A stretch of DNA of 64,000 bases from a virus. The translations under genes and the position numbers were made by a program. A model generated the notes under the pieces. It saw nothing but the letters and a program-made list of their open reading frames with translations, ran no database searches and was not told the DNA's origin. The stretch's first letter is position 1; every line of letters begins with the position of its first letter. Where the stretch lies: the IMG/VR virus record IMGVR_UViG_3300009151_000047, positions 25,970-89,969 of that record. One strand, written 5' to 3'. Positions 23,448-61,356 of this stretch are shown in pieces.

Positions 23448-24067
23448 ATTTTACATTTGGAATAACAACTACCTATAAAAATATGGATCAGTTGAATGAA
23501 GTTTTTCAATCTATTGAAGCACTAAACATACCTAACTATGAAATTTTATGTATTGGACCAACCAAACATGAAGATACTGATACTGTAAAATACATTTACT
23601 TTGATGAATCTGAAAAAGAAGGTTGGATCACACGAAAGAAAAATACATTAGTTCAATCTGCAAAGTATGAGAATGTAGTATTGATGCATGATTATTATGT
23701 ATTTGATAAAGATTGGTATACAAACTTTCTTGAGTTTGGTGATGATTGGGATGTTGCATCGTGCCAACAGTTATTGATTAATGGTAAAAGACATTTCACT
23801 GATTGGGTTATCTGGGATTCACCATTCTTTCCACAGTATGCATCATTACCATATGATGATTGGTCACAGACATTATGCATGTATCAATCTGGTGGGTTTA
23901 TGATTGTTAAGAAAGAGTTAGCAACTAAAATACCTTTCAATGAAGAATTAGTTCATCATCAAGCAGAAGATGTAGAATGGTCATTACGCATGAGAACACA
24001 ATGCAAATGGGTATGTAATGGCAAGAGTATTGTTCGTCACAACAAGGTACATCGTGATGCACAATAA
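23444..24067 (+). CDS. GT2-like glycosyltransferase
   Basis: 207 residues, GT-A type. FGITTTYKNMDQLNEVFQSI begins a Rossmann-like fold, VVLMHDYYVFD is in the DxD position but reads HDYYVFD, and YQSGGFMIVKKEL, then HQAEDVEWSLRMR carries the ED motif of the catalytic base. Shorter than typical GT2 enzymes. Start and stop overlap both neighbours (4 and 11 nt). Confidence 0.75.
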   Translation: MNFTFGITTTYKNMDQLNEVFQSIEALNIPNYEILCIGPTKHEDTDTVKYIYFDESEKEGWITRKKNTLVQSAKYENVVLMHDYYVFDKDWYTNFLEFGDDWDVASCQQLLINGKRHFTDWVIWDSPFFPQYASLPYDDWSQTLCMYQSGGFMIVKKELATKIPFNEELVHHQAEDVEWSLRMRTQCKWVCNGKSIVRHNKVHRDAQ

Positions 24068-25427
24068 GTTAATTATTTTTGATCTTGATGGTGTATTGAT
24101 TGATAGTCGTGAATTACACTATGAAGCACTGAATGTTGCATTAAGTCAATTTGGTGAACAATACGTAATCAGTCGTGAAGAACACTTAAGTAAGTATGAT
24201 GGATTAAATACTACAAAGAAACTTAAGATGTTGACAGATGATAAAGGTTTGAGTCCAAGTCATTATACTAAAGTATGGTCCGATAAACAAGAGATTACTT
24301 TTACACTTATCAAACAGTTTCCAAAGAATCAATTTCTAATTGATACATTTCAGTTACTTAAGTTACAAGGTATTAAGATTGCAGTTGCTAGTAATTCAAT
24401 TCGTGAAACTGTAAAGATTGCATTACTAAGTATTGGTGTGTTAGAGTTTGTTGATTACTATATCAGTAATGAAGATGTAAAGAGAACAAAACCATTTCCC
24501 GAAATGTATTGGAAATGTATGACTGAGTTAGATGTATTGCCTAAGAATACAGTAATCATTGAAGATAGTCATATTGGTCGTGAAGGTGCATTGAATTCTG
24601 GTGCTCATCTAGTACCCGTAAAAGATACAACAGATTTGACCAAAGAAAAGATTGATGAAGCAAAAGATATACTTGATGGCGTGACGAGAAAAAAGATACC
24701 ATGGAGAGATAATAAGATGAATGTATTAATACCAATGGCAGGTGCTGGTAGTAGATTTGCTCAAGCAGGATACACATTTCCTAAACCATTAATTGAAGTT
24801 AATGGCAAACCAATGATTCAAGTTGTTGTTGAAAACTTAAATGTTGATGCACACTTTATCTTCTTGGTACAAAAAGATCACTACGAGAAATACAATCTAA
24901 AGCAGTTATTGAATCTAATTGCACCAGGTTGTGATATTGTTCAAGTAGATGGTATTACAGAAGGTGCGGCTTGCACTACATTACTTGCAAAAGAATTTAT
25001 TGATAATGATCAACCATTATTGATGGCAAACTCAGATCAGTTTGCAGAATGGAATTCAAATGAATGTCTCTATGCATTTACTGCAGATACAGTAGATGGT
25101 GGTATTGTTACATTTGAAGCAACACATCCTAAGTGGTCATTTGCTAAGTTAGGTGATGATGGGTTTGTATCTGAAGTTGCAGAGAAGAATCCTATTTCAA
25201 ATATTGCTACTGTAGGTATCTATTACTGGAAGAAAGGTTCTGATTATGTTAAGTATACAGAACAGATGATTGAGAAGAATATCAGAACAAACAATGAGTT
25301 TTATGTTTGTCCAGTATTCAATGAAGCAATTGGTGATGGTAAAAAGATTCGTGTAAAGAACATTGACAAGATGTGGGGATTAGGTACACCTGAAGATTTG
25401 AATTACTTTTTAGAGAATTACAAGTGA
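24057..25427 (+). CDS. Fused HAD phosphatase and sugar nucleotidyltransferase
   Basis: 456 residues from ATG 24057 in an 11-nt overlap with the previous gene. Residues 1-215 are a HAD hydrolase: IIFDLDGVLIDSRELH (DxDxV nucleophile), VASNSIRE (motif II), KRTKPFPE (motif III Lys) and IIEDSHIGREGA (motif IV). Residues 222-456 are a nucleotidyltransferase: MNVLIPMAGAGSRFAQAGY (GxGxR loop) with FPKPLIEVNGKPMI, and LLMANSDQF as the metal site. One protein could thus both dephosphorylate and activate a sugar to an NDP-sugar; such fusions occur in capsule clusters. An internal ribosome-site-like GAGAGATAATAAG before M222 hints the halves were once separate genes. Confidence 0.85.
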   Translation: MHNKLIIFDLDGVLIDSRELHYEALNVALSQFGEQYVISREEHLSKYDGLNTTKKLKMLTDDKGLSPSHYTKVWSDKQEITFTLIKQFPKNQFLIDTFQLLKLQGIKIAVASNSIRETVKIALLSIGVLEFVDYYISNEDVKRTKPFPEMYWKCMTELDVLPKNTVIIEDSHIGREGALNSGAHLVPVKDTTDLTKEKIDEAKDILDGVTRKKIPWRDNKMNVLIPMAGAGSRFAQAGYTFPKPLIEVNGKPMIQVVVENLNVDAHFIFLVQKDHYEKYNLKQLLNLIAPGCDIVQVDGITEGAACTTLLAKEFIDNDQPLLMANSDQFAEWNSNECLYAFTADTVDGGIVTFEATHPKWSFAKLGDDGFVSEVAEKNPISNIATVGIYYWKKGSDYVKYTEQMIEKNIRTNNEFYVCPVFNEAIGDGKKIRVKNIDKMWGLGTPEDLNYFLENYK

Positions 25428-26254
25428 ACAAATCTTGTTTTCTTGCACCAATACATCCACCAAAATTTGATGAAGGTAGTAAATTAATAGAGAGTTATAA
25501 TAAACACTTTAATGATGATCATATTTACTTAATATTTTCATCTGAAGAAGATGCAAAAGAATTCAAAACAAAAAACAAAAAGTTAAAATATCGTTCAATT
25601 GTTAATCAAAGACCCGTAAATTATGGTGTTATTACTCAAAAAAAATACAGTGGATTGATTGAGATTTTTACACAAGATGAATTTGATAAAGTTGGGGTAA
25701 TTGATGTTGATACGTTATTTCTTAAAAATATGGATTATGATACACTATTTTACCATAAAATAAAAGAGAATACATTATATTCAAATTTAATACAACAAAA
25801 GTATTATTATCAAACTGAACCATTGAAGTTTTTTACAGATTTTGAAAAACAGAAGTTAAGTGATATTCTTTCATATGGTATGTTTAATTCTGAAGTTAAT
25901 GGCACTACAATGAATGTTTTCTTTTGGTTTAATGATATACCGGTTTATAGCAAATTAAACTTCACAGATTTTTTAGAATATATAAACTATGAAGAGAATT
26001 GGATTAAAGTTAATTCACAAGATTTTGATTACATCATATATGGGTTTTATTTACTATTGCACAAATCTGCTAAATTAAAAATATTAAATTTTAATGACGA
26101 TGCAATTTATTGTAAAACAAGTTTTATAGAAAGTCAGGAATTGATTGATGAACATATTTTTCAACATGTTTATTCTTCATATAATCCTATGTGGATTAAA
26201 AATGAAATAAACACAATGAATAATACTTTTTTGAAAGTGCATACAGACAGATGA
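25424..26254 (+). CDS. Glycosyltransferase-like protein (DxD), A+T-rich
   Basis: 276 residues from a GTG that overlaps the previous stop (GTGA). FLAPIHPPKFDEGSKLIESYN, given as landmarks FLAPIHPPKF and KLIESYN, opens it, and KVGVIDVDTLFLKN carries a D-V-D site expected of a GT-A enzyme. Richer in Lys, Asn, Tyr and Phe than its neighbours, suggesting a separate origin. Exact family not recognised. Confidence 0.65.
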   Translation: MNKSCFLAPIHPPKFDEGSKLIESYNKHFNDDHIYLIFSSEEDAKEFKTKNKKLKYRSIVNQRPVNYGVITQKKYSGLIEIFTQDEFDKVGVIDVDTLFLKNMDYDTLFYHKIKENTLYSNLIQQKYYYQTEPLKFFTDFEKQKLSDILSYGMFNSEVNGTTMNVFFWFNDIPVYSKLNFTDFLEYINYEENWIKVNSQDFDYIIYGFYLLLHKSAKLKILNFNDDAIYCKTSFIESQELIDEHIFQHVYSSYNPMWIKNEINTMNNTFLKVHTDR

Positions 26255-28126: not shown

Positions 28127-30541
28127 ATGAAATTTAAAGATTTTATTAAAGAAGAAAAAGAAAAGCATGCCGTTTTGGCATTTGGTAGAGTCAATCCACC
28201 TACAGTAGGTCACGAAAAACTAGTCAATAAAGTCAAAGAGATTGCTAAAAATGTTGGTGGAACACACCATGTTGTTCTCTCACATAGTCAAGACCCAGGT
28301 AAGAATCCTCTCACTTCTCAACAAAAACTAAAACATGCTAAACGATTCTTTCCAGATACTAATCTAACAGTATCAGATAAAGAACATCCTAATTTTCTAA
28401 GTCAAGCGGCAAAGTTACATAAAGCAGGTGCAACACATCTGCATATGGTTGCTGGTTCAGACCGCACAGACGAATATCATAAGTTGTTACACAAATACAA
28501 TAATGTAAAAGGACCGCATGGACACTTCAATTTTAAGAAGATTACAGTTCATTCTGCTGGTCAACGTGATCCTGATGCAGAGGGTGCAGAAGGTATGTCT
28601 GCATCTAAGATGAGAGGTCATGCAACATCTGGTAACTATAAAGAATTCAAACAAGGCATTCCTGGTCGTGTGCAAGATAAACATGCCAAAGAATTATATC
28701 ATGATGTAAGAAAAGGTATGGGTGTTAAAGAAGGATTCAATCTATCATTAGATTTTTTATTTGAACAACAGTTAGATGAAGGTGTGCATGATAAGAGTAT
28801 CTTCAAAGCAGTATTCTTATCTGGCGGTCCAGGTTCAGGTAAAGATTATGTATTAGATAATACACTTGCAGGTCATGGATTAACAGAATTGAATTCAGAT
28901 AAAGCATTTGAATACTTGATGGACAAAGAAAATCTTGATATGAAGATGCCTGCTGGTGAACAAAGCAAAAGAGATTTAGTTCGTGGTCGTGCAAAGAATG
29001 TCACTGAGTTGCGCCAAAGATTGGCATTGTCTGGTCGCAATGGTTTAATCATTAATGGTACGGGTGATGATTTTGAAAAGATTAAGAAGATTAAAGAGAA
29101 GTTAGAAGAGATTGGTTATGCAACATCTATGGTTGCAGTTCAAACTAAAGATGAAGTATCACAACAAAGAAACATTGAACGTGGTCAACGTGGTGGTAGA
29201 ACAGTACCAGAGAATATTCGTAAAGAGAAATGGGATGCAGTTCAAAAGAATAGAGCCGAGTTTGCTAAACTATTTGGACAAAACTATATTGAATTTGATA
29301 ACTCTGAAGATTTACGCTCTGCAGATCCAGAAGTAGTGAAAGCAAAAAAAGAAGAGATGATGCAGATTTTTAAGAAAGTAAAAGAATTTACATCAAAACA
29401 ACCAGATCATGAACAAGCACAACAATGGATGGCAACAGAATTAAATAAGAAAGATACAACAAAACCAAGTGAAAAAGGTTTGAATCAAACACCGCCTACC
29501 GAGTCTGGTGCATATAAAGAAGCAATGAAACTTGGTTTACAATACTATGGTTTTGGTAGATATGGTAAAAACGGAACAACAACACATCACTCCATCAACG
29601 ATAAGTTAGTTGCTGTTGGTAAGATTAAATTGAAAACACCTGATATTCCTACATCAAGTTCATCAATGTCCTCTGGAACACCAAGAGGTGGTGCATCAAA
29701 TACACAGATACCAGCAAAAACAAAAGAAACTATTCAGAAAACTAAAGAGACATCAAAAATTGCTAAATTAAAAAAAGAATCTGTTAATGAACAGTTCTTA
29801 GAATTTATAAATGAAACAGTTACAGTTACATTCAGTGGAGATACACCAGAAGAAGTTGCAAAGGCAATCAAACTATTAAAATCTGATGAAGAACCAGAAG
29901 AAGAAGTTGAAGAGCATTATCAATTTTCAGATAGAAGTGCCTTTAATGCATTGACATTGGGAACACCAATGCTTATAGAAAGTGTAGAGAAAAAGAATTA
30001 TCTTAAAGATGGTAAAGGTAACACTAGAAAATACATGATGAGGCGTGCCGCTGCCAAAGATGCACATCTCAAAAATGGTGAAGTTGAAAAACAAGGCAAT
30101 TTTTATGTAGTTAAACTTAAGGAGAGTAATGATGTTGAATTTCATAAAGAATATATTCAAGAAGAAGGAAGAAGTCAAAGTAGAAGTATCAGTACCAGTA
30201 GAGTCACCGAAGGAAGTAGTTGTGGAGGTGGCGCCAGTTGTGACTGCGGTTGTGGAAGCACCAGCACCAGTCCAAGAACAAAAATCTCCTTCACCCAAGC
30301 GAAGAAGAAGCTCAAAGAAAAAATAAATGAGATTGACATGGGCATAGAACCTGGTATGGCCATGTCTGGTTGGAACCAAGAGATTATTGGTAAAGACGGT
30401 AAAGCAAAACCAAAGATGAAAGATAAATTAAGTGAATTAACTGGTGATGAAACTACTGCATCTATCGGGGATCAAAAAGAAGATGAATTAAAAAAACAAG
30501 GCATTAGTCTTGCTTCATTTAAAAAGAAAAACTATCTATGA
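28127..30541 (+). CDS. Capsid-targeted-like bifunctional nucleotidyltransferase/P-loop kinase (NadR-like layout)
   Basis: 804 residues. N terminus MKFKDFIKEE resembles the T4 capsid-targeting peptide. Residues 15-190 are a cytidylyltransferase-like nucleotidyltransferase: FGRVNPPTVGH (H-x-G-H equivalent, TVGH at 26-29) and MSASKMR at 157-163 (ISSTxxR equivalent), as in NMN adenylyltransferases. At 231-241 SGGPGSGKDY is a Walker A of a zeta-toxin/kinase-type domain. Order NMNAT then kinase is that of NadR. A long Lys/Glu/Ser-rich rear follows, with a second FLEFINE site near 560, a Cys/Gly-rich stretch (overprinted by another frame) and a conserved tail. Late promoter and GGGAG ribosome site upstream. 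Confidence 0.75.
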   Translation: MKFKDFIKEEKEKHAVLAFGRVNPPTVGHEKLVNKVKEIAKNVGGTHHVVLSHSQDPGKNPLTSQQKLKHAKRFFPDTNLTVSDKEHPNFLSQAAKLHKAGATHLHMVAGSDRTDEYHKLLHKYNNVKGPHGHFNFKKITVHSAGQRDPDAEGAEGMSASKMRGHATSGNYKEFKQGIPGRVQDKHAKELYHDVRKGMGVKEGFNLSLDFLFEQQLDEGVHDKSIFKAVFLSGGPGSGKDYVLDNTLAGHGLTELNSDKAFEYLMDKENLDMKMPAGEQSKRDLVRGRAKNVTELRQRLALSGRNGLIINGTGDDFEKIKKIKEKLEEIGYATSMVAVQTKDEVSQQRNIERGQRGGRTVPENIRKEKWDAVQKNRAEFAKLFGQNYIEFDNSEDLRSADPEVVKAKKEEMMQIFKKVKEFTSKQPDHEQAQQWMATELNKKDTTKPSEKGLNQTPPTESGAYKEAMKLGLQYYGFGRYGKNGTTTHHSINDKLVAVGKIKLKTPDIPTSSSSMSSGTPRGGASNTQIPAKTKETIQKTKETSKIAKLKKESVNEQFLEFINETVTVTFSGDTPEEVAKAIKLLKSDEEPEEEVEEHYQFSDRSAFNALTLGTPMLIESVEKKNYLKDGKGNTRKYMMRRAAAKDAHLKNGEVEKQGNFYVVKLKESNDVEFHKEYIQEEGRSQSRSISTSRVTEGSSCGGGASCDCGCGSTSTSPRTKISFTQAKKKLKEKINEIDMGIEPGMAMSGWNQEIIGKDGKAKPKMKDKLSELTGDETTASIGDQKEDELKKQGISLASFKKKNYL
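30129..30326 (+). CDS. Overprinted small protein inside the 804-residue gene
   Basis: 65 residues in another frame of the preceding gene. It has its own AAGGAG 6 nt before ATGATG, and the product is gene-like: MMLNFIKNIFKKKEE, a Val/Glu/Pro-rich middle (EVVVEVAPVV), and a basic SPKRRRSSKKK end. In this stretch the host frame reads as unusual Ser/Gly/Cys-rich sequence (SCGGGASCDCGCG) with codons rare elsewhere, as expected when the other frame is the constrained one. Real translation is inferred, not shown. Confidence 0.55.
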   Translation: MMLNFIKNIFKKKEEVKVEVSVPVESPKEVVVEVAPVVTAVVEAPAPVQEQKSPSPKRRRSSKKK

Positions 30542-46586: not shown

Positions 46587-47330
46587 ATGACTATTCAAAG
46601 TTCTGGTGCATTAGCATTAACTGAAATACAAACGGAATTTGGTGGAACCAATCCTGTTAGTATGAGTGAATACTATAGAGGTGGTTCATATGTGGCTAAT
46701 GATTCATCAAATACCAATATACCTGGATCAGGCGCAATTGCATTTAGTAATTTTTATGGCACATCAAAACCATCTGGAATTTCTCAGTCTCTTATTTCTG
46801 TTGGACAGTATTTTGCTGCTAGTGCATATTCATTAGATCGGGTAGATGGTAGTGTTTGGCTTACAGTTGCCGCAATGGGTGGTAGACCAGAAATAAATCA
46901 ACAAGCTCCAAGTTCGGATCTTCGTGCTGTATGGTTACAATATCGTGCAAGAGGAGCAGATAACACGGCAGGATACAATGGTAATGCTGATGGACAAAAA
47001 TATAGGTATGATACAACTAATACATATACAAGATTCCATTGGTGGCAAAGTATAGATGTTGTTGCATTGGGTGTTAGTACTAACACTGATGTTGGTGCTT
47101 CTAGTGGTGGTGAAGGTGGTTTTTATGCTCAAGGAAATGTCGCTTACACCTATCGAATTACTAAGATATCAACAAATTCAGTTGAATTGAGAACATATCC
47201 TAGTGCTTGGAATACTGGTGATGCAGGTAATAATGTTACTGTATCAAATTGGTGGAGTGGTTTCAATAACGCAACAGGTAACAACACAGAAGCAAATGGA
47301 TATCTTGGTTGGTTTACATTAACATGGTAA
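46587..47330 (+). CDS. Fibre or minor virion protein with hinge-like N terminus
   Basis: 247 residues. The start TIQSSGALALTEIQTEFGG and MSEYYRGG is a motif found at the front of many phage tail-fibre and baseplate-associated proteins. The rest is rich in Ser, Thr, Asn, Gly and Trp with beta-strand alternation, ending GYLGWFTLTW. It probably attaches to the virion by its front and exposes the rear. First gene of the accessory island at 46.6-53.8 kb. Confidence 0.75.
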   Translation: MTIQSSGALALTEIQTEFGGTNPVSMSEYYRGGSYVANDSSNTNIPGSGAIAFSNFYGTSKPSGISQSLISVGQYFAASAYSLDRVDGSVWLTVAAMGGRPEINQQAPSSDLRAVWLQYRARGADNTAGYNGNADGQKYRYDTTNTYTRFHWWQSIDVVALGVSTNTDVGASSGGEGGFYAQGNVAYTYRITKISTNSVELRTYPSAWNTGDAGNNVTVSNWWSGFNNATGNNTEANGYLGWFTLTW

Positions 47331-47336
47331 TAACAA

Positions 47337-47720
47337 ATGGCTAAAATACAAAACGAAGCAAAAGTTATATACAACATGTATAAAAATGCCAATACATATA
47401 ATATTGGTACATTTATCTATGATGGTGAGAAAGTAACCTTTGAAGAAGATGGTGTATCAATAGTATATGAAGATGGTTCAACATCAACATTTAATGTATT
47501 TGAAGATTATAAACAAACTGCTTTAAAGAATCTAATTGTTGATGTTTCTAAAAAGATTAATAACTACAGTGAGATTAATAAAATTCTAACTACAGTGAAT
47601 AGTGATTTTAAAGTTCAAGTATTAACCACTGGTATTACAGTAATCAATGATAGTACCAATGTTACTGAAATTGAAACCATTAACAATCTCAAAAACGAAT
47701 TGATAGGTAAAATAGAATGA
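47337..47720 (+). CDS. Hypothetical protein downstream of fibre gene
   Basis: 127 residues, mixed alpha/beta, containing DGEKVTFEEDGVSIVYEDGST. Its end overlaps the next start by 4 nt. Genes just after fibre genes often encode fibre-assembly or attached proteins, but no family is recognised. Confidence 0.7.
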   Translation: MAKIQNEAKVIYNMYKNANTYNIGTFIYDGEKVTFEEDGVSIVYEDGSTSTFNVFEDYKQTALKNLIVDVSKKINNYSEINKILTTVNSDFKVQVLTTGITVINDSTNVTEIETINNLKNELIGKIE

Positions 47721-48214
47721 GTTATGCTATAAATTCAAAGGGTGAATACTTAGGTGTAGTTGAAGATAATGATGTAAGAATCCATAAGTATGTACCTTAT
47801 CATGTTGATTTACCATATGATTCTATTTGGTCCGATGAATTAGAAACATGGATTCGTGCATACTATATTGATGAGGATGGTAAACCAATTGAGAAAGGTT
47901 CAACTACAGAATATAGTATTGTTACTAGAGAAAAGCCAGAAATCAACGATGTTGTATTTGATATTGAAAAGAATAAATGGTCATTTGATCAATCCAAAAT
48001 AGTTGTTATAAAAGAACAATTAATTACGGAACATTTTATTGATGCACTTGATACAATAGGTAATAATCATTTGGTCATTCAAAACATTGTTACTCTTATA
48101 GATAATGTAACACTAAAACAAAATATATTAAATGTTGCAAACAATATACAATCAGCAACAACAACAGAAGAGGTAAATGAACAGGTTGTAGTTCTAAACA
48201 CATTATTGAATTGA
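47717..48214 (+). CDS. Hypothetical protein, possible tail assembly factor
   Basis: 165 residues. The front is beta-rich (MSYAINSKGEYLGVVEDND, then PYDSIWSDELETWIRAYYI) and the rear helical (TLIDNVTLKQNILNVANNIQ). The layout resembles small phage fibre-assembly chaperones, but no sequence motif confirms it. Coupled to the gene before by ATGA. Confidence 0.65.
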   Translation: MSYAINSKGEYLGVVEDNDVRIHKYVPYHVDLPYDSIWSDELETWIRAYYIDEDGKPIEKGSTTEYSIVTREKPEINDVVFDIEKNKWSFDQSKIVVIKEQLITEHFIDALDTIGNNHLVIQNIVTLIDNVTLKQNILNVANNIQSATTTEEVNEQVVVLNTLLN

Positions 48215-48225
48215 AAGGAAGTATT

Positions 48226-49131
48226 ATGAATTGGTTTAGTATTTTAATTGGCATGATTTTATCATTAAATGTTAGTGCCGCAGATATAAAAATGATTGTA
48301 CCATTTCCACCCGGTGGTGGTACAGATTTAGTTGCTAGAATTCTAGCCAAAGAAGCATCAAAGACTTTAAATAAAACTATTATTATTGAAAATGTTGGCG
48401 GCGCAGGTGGTGATGTTGGTCGTCAAAAAGCAATCAGAGATAATGTATTGTTGTTCACACCAAATAGTTTATTGATCACCGCATATCTAAACAACCTGAG
48501 TTACATACCTCTAGAAGAATTCAAAGCAGTTGTTGGTGTTGGTGCATATCCTTATTTGATATCTGCACATCCTAATTTTGTAATGAAGAATCTATTAGAG
48601 TTGCCCACTCTATCAAAGAAATATGGTATTATTAATATTGCCTCTGCTGGTACTGCAGGTGCCAATAATCTAATCATTGAACAGTTAGGTATCAAATTCA
48701 ATTTTAAAGTTGAGGCTATTCCACATAGAGGCACTAGTGATGGACTGCTGACTGTAATGTCTGGTTCAACACCTCTATTAGTCAGTGGTATTCAAGGAAC
48801 AAAAGCACATATTGATTCTGGTAAGTTGCGAGCAGTTGCTATTACAACAACCCATCGTGATATTTTAATGAATACTATACCTACAGTTCAAGAGATGACT
48901 AAACAATCATTCAATTATCCTGGTTGGTTTGGTATTGTTGCACCAAAGAATTATGATAGAAAAATTGCCGATGAAGTAACCAGTGCAGTATTATCGGCAT
49001 TAGATAAACAGGATGTGAAAGATAAAGTTAAACAAGAGAATGTGACCATATGGGCATACGGACCAAAAGAATTCCATGAGTTTTTGGTTATTGATGATAA
49101 ACAATGGTCTAAAGCAATAATGAAGAAGTAA
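48226..49131 (+). CDS. Bug/TctC-family periplasmic solute-binding protein (copy 1)
   Basis: 301 residues from ATG 48226 (AAAGGAA upstream, which lies inside the longer reading). A signal peptide MNWFSILIGMILSLNVSAA precedes the mature start IKMIVPFPPGGGTDLVARIL, the Bug family signature. IIENVGGAGGDVG, then ASAGTAGANNL and PGWFGIVAPKNYD are further conserved family blocks. Bug proteins bind carboxylates or amino acids in the periplasm, some feeding TctAB transporters. Virus-encoded versions are, to my knowledge, very unusual. Ends by TAATG with an AsnB-like gene. Confidence 0.9.
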   Translation: MNWFSILIGMILSLNVSAADIKMIVPFPPGGGTDLVARILAKEASKTLNKTIIIENVGGAGGDVGRQKAIRDNVLLFTPNSLLITAYLNNLSYIPLEEFKAVVGVGAYPYLISAHPNFVMKNLLELPTLSKKYGIINIASAGTAGANNLIIEQLGIKFNFKVEAIPHRGTSDGLLTVMSGSTPLLVSGIQGTKAHIDSGKLRAVAITTTHRDILMNTIPTVQEMTKQSFNYPGWFGIVAPKNYDRKIADEVTSAVLSALDKQDVKDKVKQENVTIWAYGPKEFHEFLVIDDKQWSKAIMKK

Positions 49132-50228
49132 TGCATAAGATAAAATATTATATTGATGATGTAGTCAGAGAACAAATAATACAAATAGCAATCAAAGACT
49201 ATTACCTCACACAAAAAGAAAGAGTCTTTGATTTAATGGCATTGTTCTGTGTTGGTAATCTATTAAACATATCAGGACCAATTAATAGAAACCATGAGTT
49301 TGTATTTAATTTTGATGGCACACCTATACCTACAGAGTTTAATACTTCAGATACATTCACTGAAACATCATTAAAGACTGCAGAAGATATATGGTCAGTT
49401 GCAGGTAATAGAAAAGTTTGCGTATTCTGGTCAGGTGGTATTGATTCAACAGTTGCATTGGTTGCTCTAATGATGACAAATAGTGATTGGTTGAATAGAG
49501 TTAGAATCTATACCTCAGAGTATGCCATCAAAGAAGAGTATCCACTATTCTATGATACTTACTTAAAGAATGCCGATGTGGTCATGTTAAAGAATCTAGA
49601 ATTCTTTGATAAGAAGCTATTTGATCTTGATGTGTTACCTATTGATGGTACATGTGGTGATCAGATATGGGGGTGTAACATTATGAGAGATATGGGTGAG
49701 ATGAGGAAACAACACTACTCTAAGTTATATAATCATAATGAATTCTATTTGCATACCGAAAAACATAAACGGTTGTATATTACAATAGATTATATTGAAC
49801 AACAGATAGAGAAGTTTCCTGTGCCTATTAAAACAGTTGCAGATTTATATTGGATGTTAACCTTCACACACAAATGGGATCATGTTAAGAGTCGTGCCAT
49901 AGCAGCAGTCAATGATATAACTATATTTGATAACAAGATAAGTTTCTTTAATAGTTTATATTACCAACGATGGGCAATGTCCAATTTAGATGTTAAGTTG
50001 GGTGATACATGGAACACATATAAACAACCAGCAAAAGATTTTATCTATGAATTCACTGGTGATAATGAGTATAGAGTGAACAAGTTACAACATGAGTCAA
50101 TGGGTAGATCAGTTGAACCAGTTAAGCATTTAATCAGAGGTATGCGGTTAGTTACAACCAACGGACATTTAATTAATATGGATGAATCTAAATGTGAACA
50201 ATTACTAAGGGAGTGTTACACCAAATGA
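49131..50228 (+). CDS. Asparagine-synthetase-like PP-loop ATPase, copy 1 (intact)
   Basis: 365 residues. VCVFWSGGIDSTVALVAL is an intact PP-loop (SGGxDS) that binds ATP, and DGTCGDQIWGCNI resembles the SGxGxDELFGGY block of AsnB. The rear helices (DLYWMLTFTHKWDHVKSRA, YYQRWAMSN) fit the AsnB-type C-terminal domain. No N-terminal glutaminase Cys2, so it would need free ammonia or another amine. It may adenylate a carboxylate. First of three tandem paralogues. Confidence 0.8.
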   Translation: MHKIKYYIDDVVREQIIQIAIKDYYLTQKERVFDLMALFCVGNLLNISGPINRNHEFVFNFDGTPIPTEFNTSDTFTETSLKTAEDIWSVAGNRKVCVFWSGGIDSTVALVALMMTNSDWLNRVRIYTSEYAIKEEYPLFYDTYLKNADVVMLKNLEFFDKKLFDLDVLPIDGTCGDQIWGCNIMRDMGEMRKQHYSKLYNHNEFYLHTEKHKRLYITIDYIEQQIEKFPVPIKTVADLYWMLTFTHKWDHVKSRAIAAVNDITIFDNKISFFNSLYYQRWAMSNLDVKLGDTWNTYKQPAKDFIYEFTGDNEYRVNKLQHESMGRSVEPVKHLIRGMRLVTTNGHLINMDESKCEQLLRECYTK

Positions 50229-51337
50229 ACAAAATTAAAATTTTTAATGATGATTTATTACATCAATTATTACCTATATTAAAAAATAAAGATGATAACA
50301 TTAATTTAGCATCAAATGAATATATTAATAGAATATTTTCCTGTCATAATACATTGGATAGAACAGGTTCTGTAAATTTACCTATACAAAATTATTTACC
50401 CACGTTATCCCTTAATGTCAATGAAATGACAGGTGATTGCAATAAAGTTTTTGAAGAATTATGCGATAAAAGAGCTAATGAATTATTAGAAACCAAAACG
50501 CCACTTAGAATATTTTGGTCTGGTGGTATTGACTCTACTGGAATGTTAATTAGTTTTATGAAGGCAGATTCTAAGTGGCATGAAAAAATACAAATTATAA
50601 CTACACGAGCATCAATCACAAAAGAATATCCATTGTTCTATGAAACACACCTTAAAGATAAGAATATATTAGTAAAAGATATATGTGACGTTTATTCTAT
50701 TTTTATGGCAAATACTGATAGATATAATTTATTGGGTATACATGGTAGTCCATTTCCTCGGCATACAAGTGATACATGGAGAAAAAGAATTAAAATCTAT
50801 TCAATGCTTGATGATGATGGTACTATGTCTTTCAATACAATTAAAGATAAAATTACAATTGATCGTGGTGAAATTAATGCATTAAGTTTATTTTTTAATA
50901 AAGATGCTGTTATTGATCAACTTAATCAGTATAAGAATAAATGTCCTGTTGAAATTAATAATTTATTGGATCTGCAGTGGTTTATTTGGCTTTCACGCTG
51001 GGGTAAAGCATATAACGTATGTGTAACAAGAGGAGAAAATCCAAATATATTTGATACAATAAAAGGATTTTACGATACTGAAGATTTTATCAATTATGCT
51101 CTTACATATAATGGTGTATTAAAGACACAAGAAATAAAAGGACCAATTAAGAAAATAATTTATGATTATACCAATGATGAAGATTATTATTTGAATAAAG
51201 AGCCATTGGCATCAACATCCGCATCTGGTGGTGCGTCTAATCCTCCTCAGTATTTTAGATTAATTGATGATGTTGGTAATGTATTTAAAAGTTCTGAAAC
51301 AATACCAAAAGATACTATTGAAAAGTTACTGAAGTGA
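50225..51337 (+). CDS. Asparagine-synthetase-like PP-loop protein, copy 2 (second motif lost)
   Basis: 370 residues from ATG 50225 (ATGA overlap); the GTG at 50213 lies in the ribosome site. RIFWSGGIDSTGMLISFM keeps the PP-loop, and EYPLFYETHLKD matches EYPLFYDTYLKN of copy 1. The place of GDQIWG is HGSPFPRHTSD, so the second ATP/substrate block is not conserved. A run of Ser/Ala/Gly (STSASGGAS) near the end is extra. Binding of ATP seems kept, chemistry perhaps altered. Confidence 0.75.
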   Translation: MNKIKIFNDDLLHQLLPILKNKDDNINLASNEYINRIFSCHNTLDRTGSVNLPIQNYLPTLSLNVNEMTGDCNKVFEELCDKRANELLETKTPLRIFWSGGIDSTGMLISFMKADSKWHEKIQIITTRASITKEYPLFYETHLKDKNILVKDICDVYSIFMANTDRYNLLGIHGSPFPRHTSDTWRKRIKIYSMLDDDGTMSFNTIKDKITIDRGEINALSLFFNKDAVIDQLNQYKNKCPVEINNLLDLQWFIWLSRWGKAYNVCVTRGENPNIFDTIKGFYDTEDFINYALTYNGVLKTQEIKGPIKKIIYDYTNDEDYYLNKEPLASTSASGGASNPPQYFRLIDDVGNVFKSSETIPKDTIEKLLK

Positions 51338-52383
51338 GTAATTTATTAATATATAAGAATCCATCTACATTTGATCGGTTAGATGAATTGGGTATTGATT
51401 ACACAGACACACTAACCGCATATCAAATAGGATTTTTAGGCAACACAGGTATGGGTATTGATAGAACAGTGCCAAGTATTTTCAATCTAACACCATGTCC
51501 TATACCTAGTTATTTAACAACAAAGAGTTTCTCTGATATCGTATATGAGAGGGCAACAGACTTAAAGAACCAAGGTTATCAAGATGTATTGGTATCCGGT
51601 CTATCATCATTAGTTGTTGTTAAAGCATTAGAGGATGTTGGTGCAAGACCTCATGTTATAATAACAGATAATGATATACAGACTTTACCCGAAGTATATG
51701 AGAGAATAAAACATCTGTCTCATGATATTGTACCTTTAAGTGAGTTAATGAATGGTAATATATTAAAAACTAAAGTTATTACCGGAAGTGGTGGAAAATA
51801 TCTTTATAATGTATCAAACAATTATTGGTTATCCAATTTTCCAGGTATTGATATGGGTAAAAATGTTATTCCTTTTAATTTATCGGTAATAGTTTTTAAT
51901 GCAATGAATATGGGCATTTGGTATAAAAATAGATTTAAGAGTAGTGCCATGGCAAAATATTATTCTGATAAAAAGGTTGCATTTAGAAATATAGAAGAAT
52001 ATCTACAGGGTTTAATGAGTAGATCACCAATAGAGATAAAAACTAAGTATGATTTTTATTGGTGGATATCTTTTGTAATGAAATGGTATTCTATAAGATA
52101 TCGGTTTATAGGTATAACTGGCAATTTTGTTAATACTGAATCTTTCTTTGATACACCAGATTTTCAATCTTGGTCAATAGCCAATCATTATACAAAATCA
52201 AGAAAAGTATTTTCTGATTTTATTGGTCAGGATATTGAATTAAAATCATCTAATGTTGTGAGATATTATTCCAACAATGTTACTTGGAAAATATGTTGGG
52301 CAGATAGTGATGGCCAAATGGTACCTGAATCAATATCTCCAACTATAGACCAAGTGCGGTCTGTATTATCTAATCAACCGTAG
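51334..52383 (+). CDS. AsnB-like paralogue, copy 3 (PP-loop degraded)
   Basis: 349 residues from a GTG in the stop of copy 2. The PP-loop place reads VLVSGLSSLVVVKAL, without the SGGxDS Asp, so ATP binding is doubtful. The rear block DFYWWISFVMKWYSIRYRFIG still matches LYWMLTFTHKWDHVKSR of copy 1, and FFDTPDFQSWSIANH matches the FFNSLYYQRWAMSN block. A non-catalytic partner subunit is possible. The gene ends tail-to-tail with the only minus-strand gene (18-nt overlap). Confidence 0.7.
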   Translation: MSNLLIYKNPSTFDRLDELGIDYTDTLTAYQIGFLGNTGMGIDRTVPSIFNLTPCPIPSYLTTKSFSDIVYERATDLKNQGYQDVLVSGLSSLVVVKALEDVGARPHVIITDNDIQTLPEVYERIKHLSHDIVPLSELMNGNILKTKVITGSGGKYLYNVSNNYWLSNFPGIDMGKNVIPFNLSVIVFNAMNMGIWYKNRFKSSAMAKYYSDKKVAFRNIEEYLQGLMSRSPIEIKTKYDFYWWISFVMKWYSIRYRFIGITGNFVNTESFFDTPDFQSWSIANHYTKSRKVFSDFIGQDIELKSSNVVRYYSNNVTWKICWADSDGQMVPESISPTIDQVRSVLSNQP

Positions 52384-53217
52384 AGATTTCCACTGATTTA
52401 TTTGATTAGTCAGGAGCATATCATATTCAATATTATTCAATGATTTTACTGATATTCCATTCTCTTGCATTTTTAATTTAAATTTATCAGATTCTATTAT
52501 ACTAACGATATTATCTTTAAATTTATTATCAATCCTACCTTTTTTACTTAGTATCATTACATTGGTATGGACAATTAAATTCTTTGATCCTTTAATATCA
52601 TCAAGAGGTTCATCAAATAATTTGAGTATTATTCTAATTTTACCTATTTTATGTAGTGGTCTTGATAATAATACAGTTGATGATGTAACATCTATTTGAC
52701 CACTGATAAGATCAATATGTGAACCTATAGAAGATTTATATGGTATGTTATAGAATTTATTACCTAGTAATCTATAGACAATATCTGAGGTACTTCCTTT
52801 GCCTGTAGTGCCAAAATTTATAGTATTTGGATTAGTATTTGCAATTTGAATTAATTGGTTAATAGTTTTAACTGGAACATTTGGATGGATAATTATCACA
52901 CTTAATACATTTCCAACATGGGCAACATAATCAAATTCTTTTTGGACATTAATACTCTTATTACCATCATCAATATTCATATAATACTTTAGATATGCAT
53001 TGAGTTGACCGATGTAATATGTATTTCCTTTAGAATTAATTACATTTTCTAAAGCAATATCACCATCAGCACCAGGTCTATTTTCTATAACAATAGGAGT
53101 ATTTTTAATCAATTCTCTAGAGATAGTATCAACAGTACCACCCGGACTTGATCTAGTGACTAGTGTTTGTGCATATGTGTTACTGCCGATCAATATCAAT
53201 ATTAATAGTATAATCAT
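52366..53217 (-). CDS. Bug/TctC-family periplasmic solute-binding protein (copy 2), reverse strand
   Basis: 283 residues, the only convincing minus-strand gene in the window. Signal peptide IILLILILIGSNTYAQ, then VTRSSPGGTVDTISREL (family start PGG.D..AR), IVIENRPGADGDIALE, INFGTTGKGSTSDI and a WKSL end. It is only distantly similar to copy 1 (shares the family blocks, little else), so it is not a recent duplicate. Rich in Ile, Asn and Lys. No clear ribosome site on its strand; a start codon ATG is present. Flanks the AsnB-like genes. Confidence 0.85.
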   Translation of the reverse strand: MIILLILILIGSNTYAQTLVTRSSPGGTVDTISRELIKNTPIVIENRPGADGDIALENVINSKGNTYYIGQLNAYLKYYMNIDDGNKSINVQKEFDYVAHVGNVLSVIIIHPNVPVKTINQLIQIANTNPNTINFGTTGKGSTSDIVYRLLGNKFYNIPYKSSIGSHIDLISGQIDVTSSTVLLSRPLHKIGKIRIILKLFDEPLDDIKGSKNLIVHTNVMILSKKGRIDNKFKDNIVSIIESDKFKLKMQENGISVKSLNNIEYDMLLTNQINQWKSLRLIR

Positions 53218-53255
53218 GACAATATATATAATTTTATGCCAAGGAGTTAATTATA

Positions 53256-53831
53256 GTGAATTCACAGAGATTTGATATATTCCCAACACCTATTATGGTC
53301 TTTCATAATCTAGGAGTTTTGGATGAAGTTCAATCATTTATTGATACTTTAGATCCACAAAAAAGAGTTAGAAATTTTCATACAGATGATACGGTTCTAA
53401 TAACATTTAAAAAAATGATCTTTGAATGTGTTACCGAATACTTTAAACCATACTATGAATTTAGTTCAGTCAATATAAAAGCATGCTGGGTAACCTCTAA
53501 TAACTTTCTAGAAGGAATGGGCACACATAATCATATGTCATGTGTAGTCAATGGTATATACTATATCAATTCAGCACCTCTATGTGGTGACTTAATTCTT
53601 TTAGATCCAAGAGGAGGCACCACTTGGCCTGAAACAAAAGAATATAATAATTTGAATATAACAACCTCAGATAAAAGATTAGAATCTGGTGGTAAAAGAA
53701 TGTATAGGATATCACCAGAGCCAGATAAGTTCGTAGTATTTCCTGCGTATATGATGCATACAGTTGAAATCAATCTAAATCCTACATTCCGTAGAAGGTC
53801 AATAGGACTAAATTTTGAGTTCATTCGGTAA
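53256..53831 (+). CDS. 2-oxoglutarate/Fe(II) oxygenase (phage TIGR02466-like)
   Basis: 191 residues from GTG 53256 with AAGGAG 10 nt before. The start FDIFPTPIMVFHN is the family signature; GTHNHMSCVVNGIYYIN carries the first Fe-ligand His (and HxH form), GDLILLDPRGG follows, and FPAYMMHTVEIN the distal His with RRSIGLNFEF giving the Arg for 2OG. This class is common in T4-like aquatic phages. Substrate unknown; peptide, nucleobase or small molecule. Confidence 0.85.
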   Translation: MNSQRFDIFPTPIMVFHNLGVLDEVQSFIDTLDPQKRVRNFHTDDTVLITFKKMIFECVTEYFKPYYEFSSVNIKACWVTSNNFLEGMGTHNHMSCVVNGIYYINSAPLCGDLILLDPRGGTTWPETKEYNNLNITTSDKRLESGGKRMYRISPEPDKFVVFPAYMMHTVEINLNPTFRRRSIGLNFEFIR

Positions 53832-54050: not shown

Positions 54051-54079
54051 TTGACATCCAGTGCCGTTTATGGTATAAT
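54051..54079 (+). promoter_or_regulatory. Sigma70-like promoter, upstream of tandem pair
   Basis: TTGACA at 54051-54056 and TATAAT at 54074-54079, spacing 17 bp, preceded by TGC of the early class but followed by AACAGGG rather than the shared AGTCTGA leader. Only 58 nt before the next promoter. Confidence 0.8.
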
Positions 54080-54136
54080 AACAGGGTGGACAGGGCGGGA
54101 TCATAGAAATCCTCTAGATAATAACGGAAATAATGC

Positions 54137-54164
54137 TTGACATTCGGTACCGACCTGGTATAAT
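54137..54164 (+). promoter_or_regulatory. Early promoter 1 of the AGTCTGA class
   Basis: TTGACA at 54137-54142, TATAAT at 54159-54164, spacing 16 bp. Followed by AGAGTCTGAATTGATTGA, the leader shared by seven promoters of this region. Confidence 0.9.
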
Positions 54165-54197
54165 AGAGTCTGAATTGATTGATACGAAGGAATCCCT

Positions 54198-54326
54198 ATG
54201 TACCTAGTAAAATGCCCTGATGAGACTTTGATTGCCAACGACTGGATTCAAGTTTATGAGATTATGCAAGAGGTTATTCAGCAATTTGGCGCCGAGGATG
54301 CTGTAATTACTGTTACTATGATATAA
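54198..54326 (+). CDS. 42-residue early protein
   Basis: Begins MYLVKCPDETLIANDW and ends GAEDAVITVTMI. It follows an early promoter and an AAGGA ribosome site 7 nt before the ATG. Small, but position between two promoters and typical codon use support it. Confidence 0.7.
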   Translation: MYLVKCPDETLIANDWIQVYEIMQEVIQQFGAEDAVITVTMI

Positions 54327-54331
54327 AACGC

Positions 54332-54359
54332 TTGACTTTCGGTATAGTTGTGGTATAAT
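54332..54359 (+). promoter_or_regulatory. Early promoter 2 of the AGTCTGA class
   Basis: TTGACT at 54332-54337 (last base differs) and TATAAT at 54354-54359, spacing 16 bp; upstream AAAACGC and downstream AGAGTCTGAATTGA match the class. Confidence 0.9.
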
Positions 54360-56464: not shown

Positions 56465-56492
56465 TTGACATTCGGTACCATTATGGTATAAT
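56465..56492 (+). promoter_or_regulatory. Early promoter 3 of the AGTCTGA class
   Basis: TTGACA at 56465-56470, TATAAT at 56487-56492, spacing 16 bp; preceded by AAAACGC and followed by GTAGTCTGAATTGATTGA. Confidence 0.92.
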
Positions 56493-59886: not shown

Positions 59887-59961
59887 GTTGTTGTTAGATC
59901 ATTTTTTTGATTGGGATTGAAGAATGAACAAGATATACATCATTTGTGCAAGGGGACAAGC

Positions 59962-60399
59962 ATGACTACAGAATGGAGTCACTTACCTAACGCAGAGCAT
60001 ATTAATTGGGTTTTGGACACACTAAAAGAAAATCCAGAGGTGTGGAGCGCTGCAACAGATGCTGCTTGGCGTGTTGCGTGGGATGCTTCTAGGGCTGCTG
60101 CGTGGAGTGATGCGTGGATTGCTGCGAGGTATGCTGGGTGGGGTGTTGTGCGGGATGCTTCAATAAAGAATGCTGCGTTGGATGCTGCGTGGGCTGCTGC
60201 GTTGGATGCTGCGAGGAATGATGCGTTGGATGCAATTTTTGCACTTATCGCTTGGGATGACTCAAACAAGTTGCTGAATATGTCAATTGAAGAAGTTGCT
60301 AAGTTAGGTAGTGAAGGTAACCATTCTGCTGTTCTTATGTTGCCAGCTGTCGTTGTCAAATATAAACTAAAGGAGTTAAAGAATGAACGATATGTTTGA
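59962..60399 (+). CDS. Ala/Trp repeat protein, copy 1
   Basis: 145 residues from ATG 59962 (AGGGGAC upstream). The centre is a run of about ten short Ala-rich units of the type DAAWRVAWDAS, with Trp or Arg at every fifth to sixth place, predicted as one long helix or a solenoid. N terminus EWSHLPNAEHINWVLDTLK and C terminus AWDDSNKLLNMSIEEVAKL are shared with copy 2. Such repeats are widespread in phages with no known role. The reverse strand is also open here, because of the repeat. Confidence 0.8.
   Translation: MTTEWSHLPNAEHINWVLDTLKENPEVWSAATDAAWRVAWDASRAAAWSDAWIAARYAGWGVVRDASIKNAALDAAWAAALDAARNDALDAIFALIAWDDSNKLLNMSIEEVAKLGSEGNHSAVLMLPAVVVKYKLKELKNERYV
60049..60236 (+). repeat. Degenerate GCTGCGT(G/T)GGAT repeat array 1
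   Basis: About twelve imperfect 15-18-bp units around GCTGCG and TGGGATGCT, coding the Ala/Trp repeats. GC content is far above the rest of the window. Confidence 0.8.
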
Positions 60400-60673
60400 G
60401 CCAAATAAAACCCATGGAATACTATATTGGAACGGAATCATGGAGGTGGAAGGTTTGGAACTCAATAGGAAAATAGAAAGGGAAAGAATAGAGAAAATGA
60501 GCAACCAAGACATTATTAATTATGTAGACAATAGTATAGAAGAAATACAAAAAGCAATAGAAGCAGAGCGTGAAGCGTGTGCAACTATTTGTGAAACTCT
60601 TGAATTGCCTGAGTGGCCTGACAAAGTGCGTCAGCCATTAGCGCAAGCGATTCGAGCGAGGGGACAAGCATGA
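60383..60673 (+). CDS. Early protein of the AEREACA type
   Basis: 96 residues, with a coiled-coil-like front (NRKIERERIEKMSNQDI) and an AIEAEREACATICETLELPE...AQAIRARG end, a common short phage protein with conserved Cys. Starts within the last codons of repeat-protein copy 1; AAAGGAG ribosome site. Function unknown. Confidence 0.8.
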   Translation: MNDMFEPNKTHGILYWNGIMEVEGLELNRKIERERIEKMSNQDIINYVDNSIEEIQKAIEAEREACATICETLELPEWPDKVRQPLAQAIRARGQA

Positions 60674-61356
60674 CTGAAAAATGGAGCCACTTACCCAATG
60701 CCAATCACATCGACTGGGTCATAAAGACGCTAGAAGAAAACCCAGACGTGTGGGATGCTGCGGAAGATGCTGCGTTGGCTGCTGCGTGGGCTGCTGCGTG
60801 GAGAGCTGCGTGGGATGCTGCGAGTGCGGCTACGTTGAATTCTGCGTTGGTTGCTGCGAGGGATGCTGCGTTGGCTGCTGCGTGGGATGCTGCGTGGGAT
60901 GCTGCGTGGGGAGCTATTGCCGCACTTGTTGCTTGGGATGACTCAAGCAATTTGTTAGATAAGTCAGTTGAAGAAGTTAAAGGATTAGCTAGAGCAGGTA
61001 ATCATGCGGCTGTTCTGTTATTACCGGCAGTGATTGTTGAGAACAAACTAAAGGAAAATAAAATGACAAAAGACGAAAGTCATTTACCAGTTGAGGAACA
61101 GAGTCTAGTATTTCGGTTACAGAAACGGGCAGAGATTCGCAGACAGATTCCTGGTCGTAAAAGTGTTCAAGAAGGTTCTAATGATCGTATTGCTGATTTA
61201 CTAGAAGAAGCGGCAAGAATTCCATCTGAGATTATAGATATACTAAAGAATGATGATTCTATCAGGCATCATGGTATGACTACATTTACTAGAGATGTAA
61301 TAGATGCAGCAATGGCTAAAGCAATTAAATTGATTGAGAAGAAGTATAATGTCTAA
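60670..61356 (+). CDS. Ala/Trp repeat protein, copy 2, fused to a second domain
   Basis: 228 residues. Residues 1-130 match copy 1: EKWSHLPNANHIDWVIKTLE, repeats of AAWDAAW type, then AWDDSSNLLDKSVEEVK. At residue 132 the frame passes an AAAGGAAAATAAA-ATG (61063), an apparent ribosome site and start. It continues as a different domain, MTKDESHLPVEEQSLVFRLQ, with basic and acidic helices to KLIEKKYNV. In copy 1 the matching spot has a stop and a new gene. So this looks like a read-through fusion, and the rear part may also be made separately. Confidence 0.75.
   Translation: MTEKWSHLPNANHIDWVIKTLEENPDVWDAAEDAALAAAWAAAWRAAWDAASAATLNSALVAARDAALAAAWDAAWDAAWGAIAALVAWDDSSNLLDKSVEEVKGLARAGNHAAVLLLPAVIVENKLKENKMTKDESHLPVEEQSLVFRLQKRAEIRRQIPGRKSVQEGSNDRIADLLEEAARIPSEIIDILKNDDSIRHHGMTTFTRDVIDAAMAKAIKLIEKKYNV
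60748..60914 (+). repeat. Degenerate GCTGCGTGGGAT repeat array 2
   Basis: Units of GCTGCGT(T/G)GG(G/C/A) in tandem, closer to perfect than array 1, with GATGCTGCGTGGGATGCTGC twice near 60885-60910. Confidence 0.85.

Follow-up and report, generated by a model that had tools for sequence, protein, structure and literature searches.

A phage gene island combining TctC/Bug-type receptors, an AsnB-like PP-loop family and a 2-oxoglutarate oxygenase

The window analysed here is a 64,000-nucleotide stretch of the virus record IMGVR_UViG_3300009151_000047 (positions 25,970 to 89,969), and it carries a six-gene island at 48226–53831. A TctC/Bug-type periplasmic solute-binding protein (P0001) is followed on the plus strand by three members of a PP-loop family (P0002, P0003 and P0004), then by a second TctC protein on the minus strand (P0005) and a 2-oxoglutarate (2OG) oxygenase on the plus strand (P0006). 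A carboxylate receptor, a carboxylate-activating enzyme class and an oxygenase are found together repeatedly in phages, sometimes with a permease; the simplest joint function would be uptake, conjugation and oxidation. We read the island as a phage auxiliary-metabolism module in which a small carboxylate is taken up, then conjugated and modified (probability about 0.55). What is new is the finding at the level of the system; the component parts are known folds. Catalogues usually list phage metabolic genes singly, and here a receptor pairs with enzymes in unrelated phages. Because two carboxylate-activating enzyme classes, plus one ATP-grasp case, stand beside the same receptor type in unrelated phages, a concrete joint function can be predicted.

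Recurrence of receptor, ligase and oxygenase genes

TctC contigs were sampled independently of the PP-loop family. Two kinds of neighbour were counted as partners: PP-loop genes (the family itself, or group c8 with SGG[YTA]DS) and AMP-forming ligases (group c22). Thirteen of 17 distinct phage TctC genes directly adjoin one or the other, often with a 4 nucleotide (nt) overlap. When positions were randomized inside these loci, the count averaged 2.4 and never exceeded 9, and 0 of 10,000 permutations reached 13. The neighbourhood check proposed in the original prediction therefore returned repeated co-occurrence of Bug and AsnB-like genes, the opposite of each gene standing alone in unrelated places. 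The enzyme categories were picked after the first neighbours had been seen; a later scan, which guards against this bias only partly, found an AMP-forming ligase adjoining TctC in four of five further distinct contigs. Most c22 cases share a genomic site and probably belong to one lineage, so the independent events are fewer than the genes. Adjacency was read from a simple greedy gene caller, viral contigs are fragments, and the pattern scans sample part of each family. We are nonetheless highly confident that the recurrent receptor–ligase linkage itself is real. The count omits one tandem missed by the gene caller (L108/L258; 9962–14655 in L258), in which TctC, a radical SAM protein, a RimK-like ATP-grasp protein and a DctP (TRAP) receptor lie downstream of tail-fibre-like genes.

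One 19.3 kb contig, L023, has an independent island; it carries an orthologous ribonucleotide reductase (72–78%) and orthologs of P0001 (57%), P0002 (46%) and P0004 (39%), the last likewise without a PP-loop. Its gene order is swapped relative to the window: TctC comes after the PP-loop gene, and further TctC–PP pairs follow with overlaps of 4–32 nt. The adhesin flank is the same, with a tail-fibre gene that matches PHROG tail fiber families and has its N-terminus in common with the window gene. Gene content and order vary between islands and one island gene lies on the opposite strand, as might be expected if unrelated host-derived genes gathered at a cargo hotspot near tail-fibre genes with no joint function. 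We consider this unlikely, since adjacency is far above the permuted values, reading frames overlap, and the pairing is conserved though its order is swapped, occurs at different genomic sites and has parallel bacterial clusters.

The oxygenase position is filled in several ways. P0006 matches Pfam 2OG-FeII_Oxy_5 (PF13759; E 1.4e-10, 41.8 bits against a cut-off of 27) and PHROG 81 (3.4e-19), and contains THNH and a later MMH, read by eye as a candidate facial triad. Oxygenases of this family are common in marine phages; P0006 differs from them in sitting in a receptor/ligase island. In L111/L112 and L097, 2OG-type proteins of group c36 lie directly upstream of TctC and a PP-loop gene, with invariant H-x-D, H and R (HxD..H..R). 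The c36 model is modest (predicted local distance difference test, pLDDT, 61), and nearly all of its listed PDB matches are 2OG oxygenases (best E 1.2e-3). L023 and L106 encode c76 proteins with HxD, assigned by motif only. On a 337 kb phage contig (L259, 8406–12680), an AMP-binding ligase and TctC are followed in tandem by the alpha and beta subunits of a Rieske ring-hydroxylating oxygenase. A bi-cupin protein adjoins many phage and bacterial PP-loop genes and is detected across both sets at about 1e-50. The 2OG-type, cupin and Rieske proteins may play equivalent roles.

Contigs chosen for the PP-loop family only fall into 41 clusters at 85% identity, and their fetched flanks were examined for transport genes. 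Thirteen of the 41 have one: nine TctC or TctC-like, four of these with TctA, and four a sodium:solute symporter (Pfam TctA 1e-74, SSF 7e-13). In L073, L080, L082/L083 and L085 the genes run PP, TctC-like, TctA and are located within or close to the neck/terminase genes; L099, a separate lineage, combines PP with TctA and a pair of TctC-like genes. Bacterial PP relatives adjoin the bi-cupin gene, and a symporter is nearby in several Patescibacteria and one Bdellovibrionales genome. The Bdellovibrionales locus (L163, 4660–14887) holds carbamoyltransferase-like and cupin genes, several PP-loop proteins, a 209-aa protein (b2), an amidase-like protein and a sodium:solute symporter. Members of b2 are also found ahead of PP genes in phages (L087, L088, L093 and L095).

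In the literature, tctA and 2OG oxygenase genes are reported separately, and we found no receptor–ligase–oxygenase unit. Contigs from SUP05 cells have a tctA domain hit and a 2OG oxygenase (PMC4164917). Phage uptake genes such as pstS have been reviewed (PMC6359870); these are likewise viral genes for nutrient uptake but are reported as separate genes, not as a unit of receptor, carboxylate-activating enzyme and oxygenase.

Receptors and PP-loop proteins of the island

Both receptors match Pfam TctC (PF03401) over most of the domain and above the cut-off of 27: P0001 with E 2.6e-34 and 119.5 bits, P0005 with E 3.5e-19 and 69.8 bits. The two Bug proteins and the 2OG oxygenase claimed in the original prediction are thus confirmed by Pfam, with all six genes in place. 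By eye, each receptor begins with a Sec-type signal peptide with a hydrophobic N-terminus and an A-x-A-like site (MNWFSILIGMILSLNVSA in P0001, MIILLILILIGSNTYA in P0005). Upstream of the P0001 ATG at 48226 are GAAAGGAAG and an in-frame TTG at 48211. P0005 is 24% identical to P0001, and P0001 matches solved Bug proteins at 3e-31 and weaker. With known Bug/TctC receptors (BugD, Bug27, the terephthalate-binding TBP), the island proteins share the Pfam match, the signal peptide, the PGG..D loop and, for P0001, 30–32% identity to Burkholderiales members. They differ in being phage-encoded, orphan (no TctA was found) and, in the case of P0001, translationally coupled to a PP-loop enzyme.

When 250 genomes from the order of Duganella were searched for a donor of P0001, the best matches reached only about 30–32% identity, so no donor or host is assigned. 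Single-protein scans with P0001, P0002 and P0004 returned the same virus only. Against named phages, tblastn gave no match with P0002 or P0006, whereas P0001 had a single 28% match, to a record without annotation. This sole named-phage TctC match (MT836965.1, 13570–16397, a human faecal ‘Bacteriophage sp.’) has TctA just downstream and may be bacterial DNA.

P0002, P0003 and P0004 share homology with one another and with a large phage family. Identity between P0002 and P0003 is about 27%, and P0004 is a remote paralogue, connected through non-self matches (e.g. 2e-9 to P0002 and 1.6e-19 to L032). The original prediction of three AsnB-like PP-loop proteins was right about a homologous trio but overstated: P0003 keeps SGGIDST without the GxxxD loop, and P0004 lacks the PP-loop as well. 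Catalysis by P0003 is probably altered or lost, judging from its motifs. A three-paralogue alignment that included the degenerate P0004 gave poor search patterns. A degenerate-pattern scan for viral relatives yielded 119 stretches, of which the best 80 were kept; the bacterial pattern scan yielded 45 loci. More than 100 viral contigs carry the family, which is also present on bacterial chromosomes.

Across 48 aligned sequences, SGG.DS and K298 never vary, while D177 is conserved in 44 and K302 in 45. At the second loop (GExxDE in AsnB), 33 of the 48 have the E and 44 the D; P0002 reads GTCGDQ. The AlphaFold model of P0002 (pLDDT 90) has human asparagine synthetase as its best Foldseek match in the PDB (E 3.4e-3, probability 1.00), with a template modelling (TM) score of only 0.35, and its best viral structure matches are unnamed phage proteins or ‘Asparagine synthase’. 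P0002 begins in family-specific sequence, and the N-terminal class II glutaminase domain is absent from its 365 aa. The family scores below the cut-off of every Pfam and NCBIfam model (Pfam AsnB 12.7 bits against 21; TIGR01536 14.7 against 267), PHROGs give short PP-loop matches only, and hhalign of the family against Escherichia coli AsnB aligned the PP-loop region alone. Compared with the AsnB synthetase domain (PF00733; lasso cyclases, beta-lactam synthetase), the family shares the SGGxDS PP-loop, the later GxxxD loop, the conserved lysines and the best PDB fold match. Unlike it, the P0002 family has no glutaminase domain, falls below all family cut-offs and has its own C-terminal region, with Thr for Glu in P0002. 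P0002 thus belongs to an AsnB-synthetase-domain-like family without a glutaminase domain and is not asparagine synthetase itself. As a family it is undescribed, all matches in Pfam, NCBIfam and PHROGs being below cut-off. This large family, uncaptured by public models, is now on the map together with its cupin- and symporter-linked bacterial relatives.

At least two copies occur in 9 of the 41 clusters, and one phage contig (L065, 5059–11044) has five tandem paralogues. The family also has two members in a cultured phage, Pseudomonas phage Cygsa01 (PP179332.1, 11421–13570; host Pseudomonas syringae), with profile hidden Markov model E-values of 5.5e-31 and 7e-28. Both sit directly after a glycine-rich adhesin-like gene and are annotated as MnmA, an annotation that looks wrong.

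Proposed mechanism and alternatives

In the proposed mechanism, P0001 and P0005 would be exported to the host periplasm, bind the carboxylate and hand it to the host's own TctAB-type permease. In the cytoplasm, P0002 would adenylate the carboxyl group and join ammonia or an amine; P0003 and P0004, as diverged paralogues, are perhaps partner or regulatory subunits. P0006 would hydroxylate substrate or product with Fe(II) and 2OG. The genes and their families, the motifs, the signal-peptide sequences and the recurring close linkage are observed; we infer uptake, the order of reactions, the amide-forming step and a benefit to the phage. The product might serve in nutrient salvage, in the modification of DNA or the virion, or in chemistry against host defence. 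Receptor uptake with amidation or conjugation, as first hypothesized in the original prediction, is the best-supported reading, given the co-occurrence and the TctA genes of some phages; its chemistry and substrate stay conditional.

The recurrence points to a widespread, undescribed phage import and chemical alteration of a small molecule. We suggest only tentatively that this is an import-and-conjugate pathway, with a receptor coupled to a carboxylate-activating enzyme (AsnB-like, AMP-forming or ATP-grasp) and an oxygenase, leading to a new infection metabolite. That the metabolite modifies, for example, phage DNA or the virion, or counters host defence, is a conjecture of the same rank.

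Several observations weigh against uptake and conjugation. P0005 lies on the other strand from the rest of the island, and some phage TctC genes have no PP-loop or ligase neighbour (L105, L125 and L265). TctA was not found in the window virus, searched over a 161 kb record, so uptake would depend on a host permease. The likeness to AsnB is remote and draws on motifs, distant profile matches and the AlphaFold model. In P0002 and its L023 ortholog, Thr occupies the position of the second-loop Glu of most relatives, which makes ordinary ammonia-dependent amidation doubtful for this branch. In AsnB this Glu is the likely general base, so the P0002/L023 branch may use a different acceptor.

Three alternatives concern the function of these genes. 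The first is a cluster for a ribosomally synthesized and post-translationally modified peptide (RiPP), in which a small ribosomal peptide would be tailored by the AsnB-like, ATP-grasp, radical SAM, 2OG and cupin enzymes and recaptured or exported by the binding protein. RiPP tailoring enzymes do include AsnB-like domains (lasso cyclases), ATP-grasp, radical SAM and 2OG oxygenases, and radical SAM or ATP-grasp genes lie near PP or TctC genes in several phages. However, no protease or ABC exporter was seen, we know of no TctC protein as a RiPP component, and no short open reading frame is conserved between the window island and L023, apart from shadows of coding genes and the upstream flank. A non-conserved precursor would escape this comparison, which also found no precursor for the modified peptide or anti-defence metabolite suggested in the original prediction. 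A RiPP cluster is thus improbable.

The enzymes could instead decorate the phage adhesin or a host surface glycan, which would account for their place by tail-fibre genes. In the window, L023, L069–L076, L265/L266 and Cygsa01, adhesin/tail-fibre-like genes are closely followed by PP or TctC genes, and some related loci have SGNH-like and carbamoyltransferase-like proteins (by eye). Against this, many relatives are elsewhere (terminase/neck genes), tail-fibre neighbourhoods are a common insertion site, and decoration has no need of a periplasmic receptor and permease, so we give it little weight. Secreted TctC proteins that block superinfection or serve as periplasmic decoys, with the enzymes unrelated, would fit the two signal peptides and the missing permease, but TctA stands beside TctC and PP in the five loci or locus pairs described above, including the separate lineage, and we know of no tripartite tricarboxylate transporter (TTT) receptor with such a role, which makes this explanation very improbable.

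Virus, island layout and neighbouring features

The window belongs to a 90 kb virus record, and IMG/VR records of 161 kb and 44 kb are the same virus (99.9% identity). Both contain the island DNA, the second only part of it. Since the three records agree, an assembly chimera was rejected. The virus is T4-like: over its full length, the polymerase is about 50% identical to the cyanophage S-RIM50 enzyme. The same contig also encodes a helicase, a primase and a ribonucleotide reductase, which places the candidate auxiliary metabolic genes (AMGs) on a genuine phage genome. Relatives of the DNA polymerase were left out, most being short fragments that lie outside the island.

The reading frames of P0001–P0004 overlap by a few nt at start and stop codons, the P0002 start overlapping the P0001 stop by 1 nt (Table 1). 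The original description of the island as contiguous and coupled therefore holds for these four genes; P0005 is encoded on the minus strand, and P0006 is preceded by a ribosome-binding site of its own. Composition is hardly informative (G+C 0.31 in the island against 0.33 in the window). A tRNA is the only Rfam match near the island.

Table 1. Genes of the island and its upstream flank, in window coordinates
Feature	Position	Strand	Remarks
P0001, TctC/Bug-type periplasmic solute-binding protein	48226..49131	+	Pfam TctC; 301 aa from ATG 48226
P0002, AsnB-synthetase-domain-like PP-loop enzyme, 365 aa	49131..50228	+	motifs SGGIDST, GDQIWG; K298/K302
P0003, PP-loop paralogue	50225..51337	+	SGGIDST kept, GxxxD loop absent
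P0004, degenerate paralogue	51334..52383	+	without PP-loop
P0005, second TctC/Bug-type solute-binding protein	52366..53217	-	Pfam TctC
P0006, 2OG-Fe(II) oxygenase (2OG-FeII_Oxy_5)	53256..53831	+	GTG start, AAGGAG upstream; Pfam, PHROG 81
Flank: tail-fibre/adhesin-like gene (46587-47330) and two short genes downstream of it	46587..48214	+	

Past the island, the plus strand carries four promoter-like sites that match TTGACA/TATAAT almost perfectly (54051–54359 and 56465–56492); the first three fall between the island end and the next small genes. Their sequences suggest that host sigma-70 type promoters start there. Elsewhere in the window, a HAD hydrolase/nucleotidyltransferase fusion (24018–25427) and an 804-aa protein with cytidylyltransferase and zeta-toxin-like kinase parts (28127–30541) may be part of a pathway for nucleotide sugars or phosphometabolites. 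A stretch of about 430 bases is present in two direct copies (59942–60374 and 60650–61055) that are 72% identical, which suggests a tandem gene duplication.

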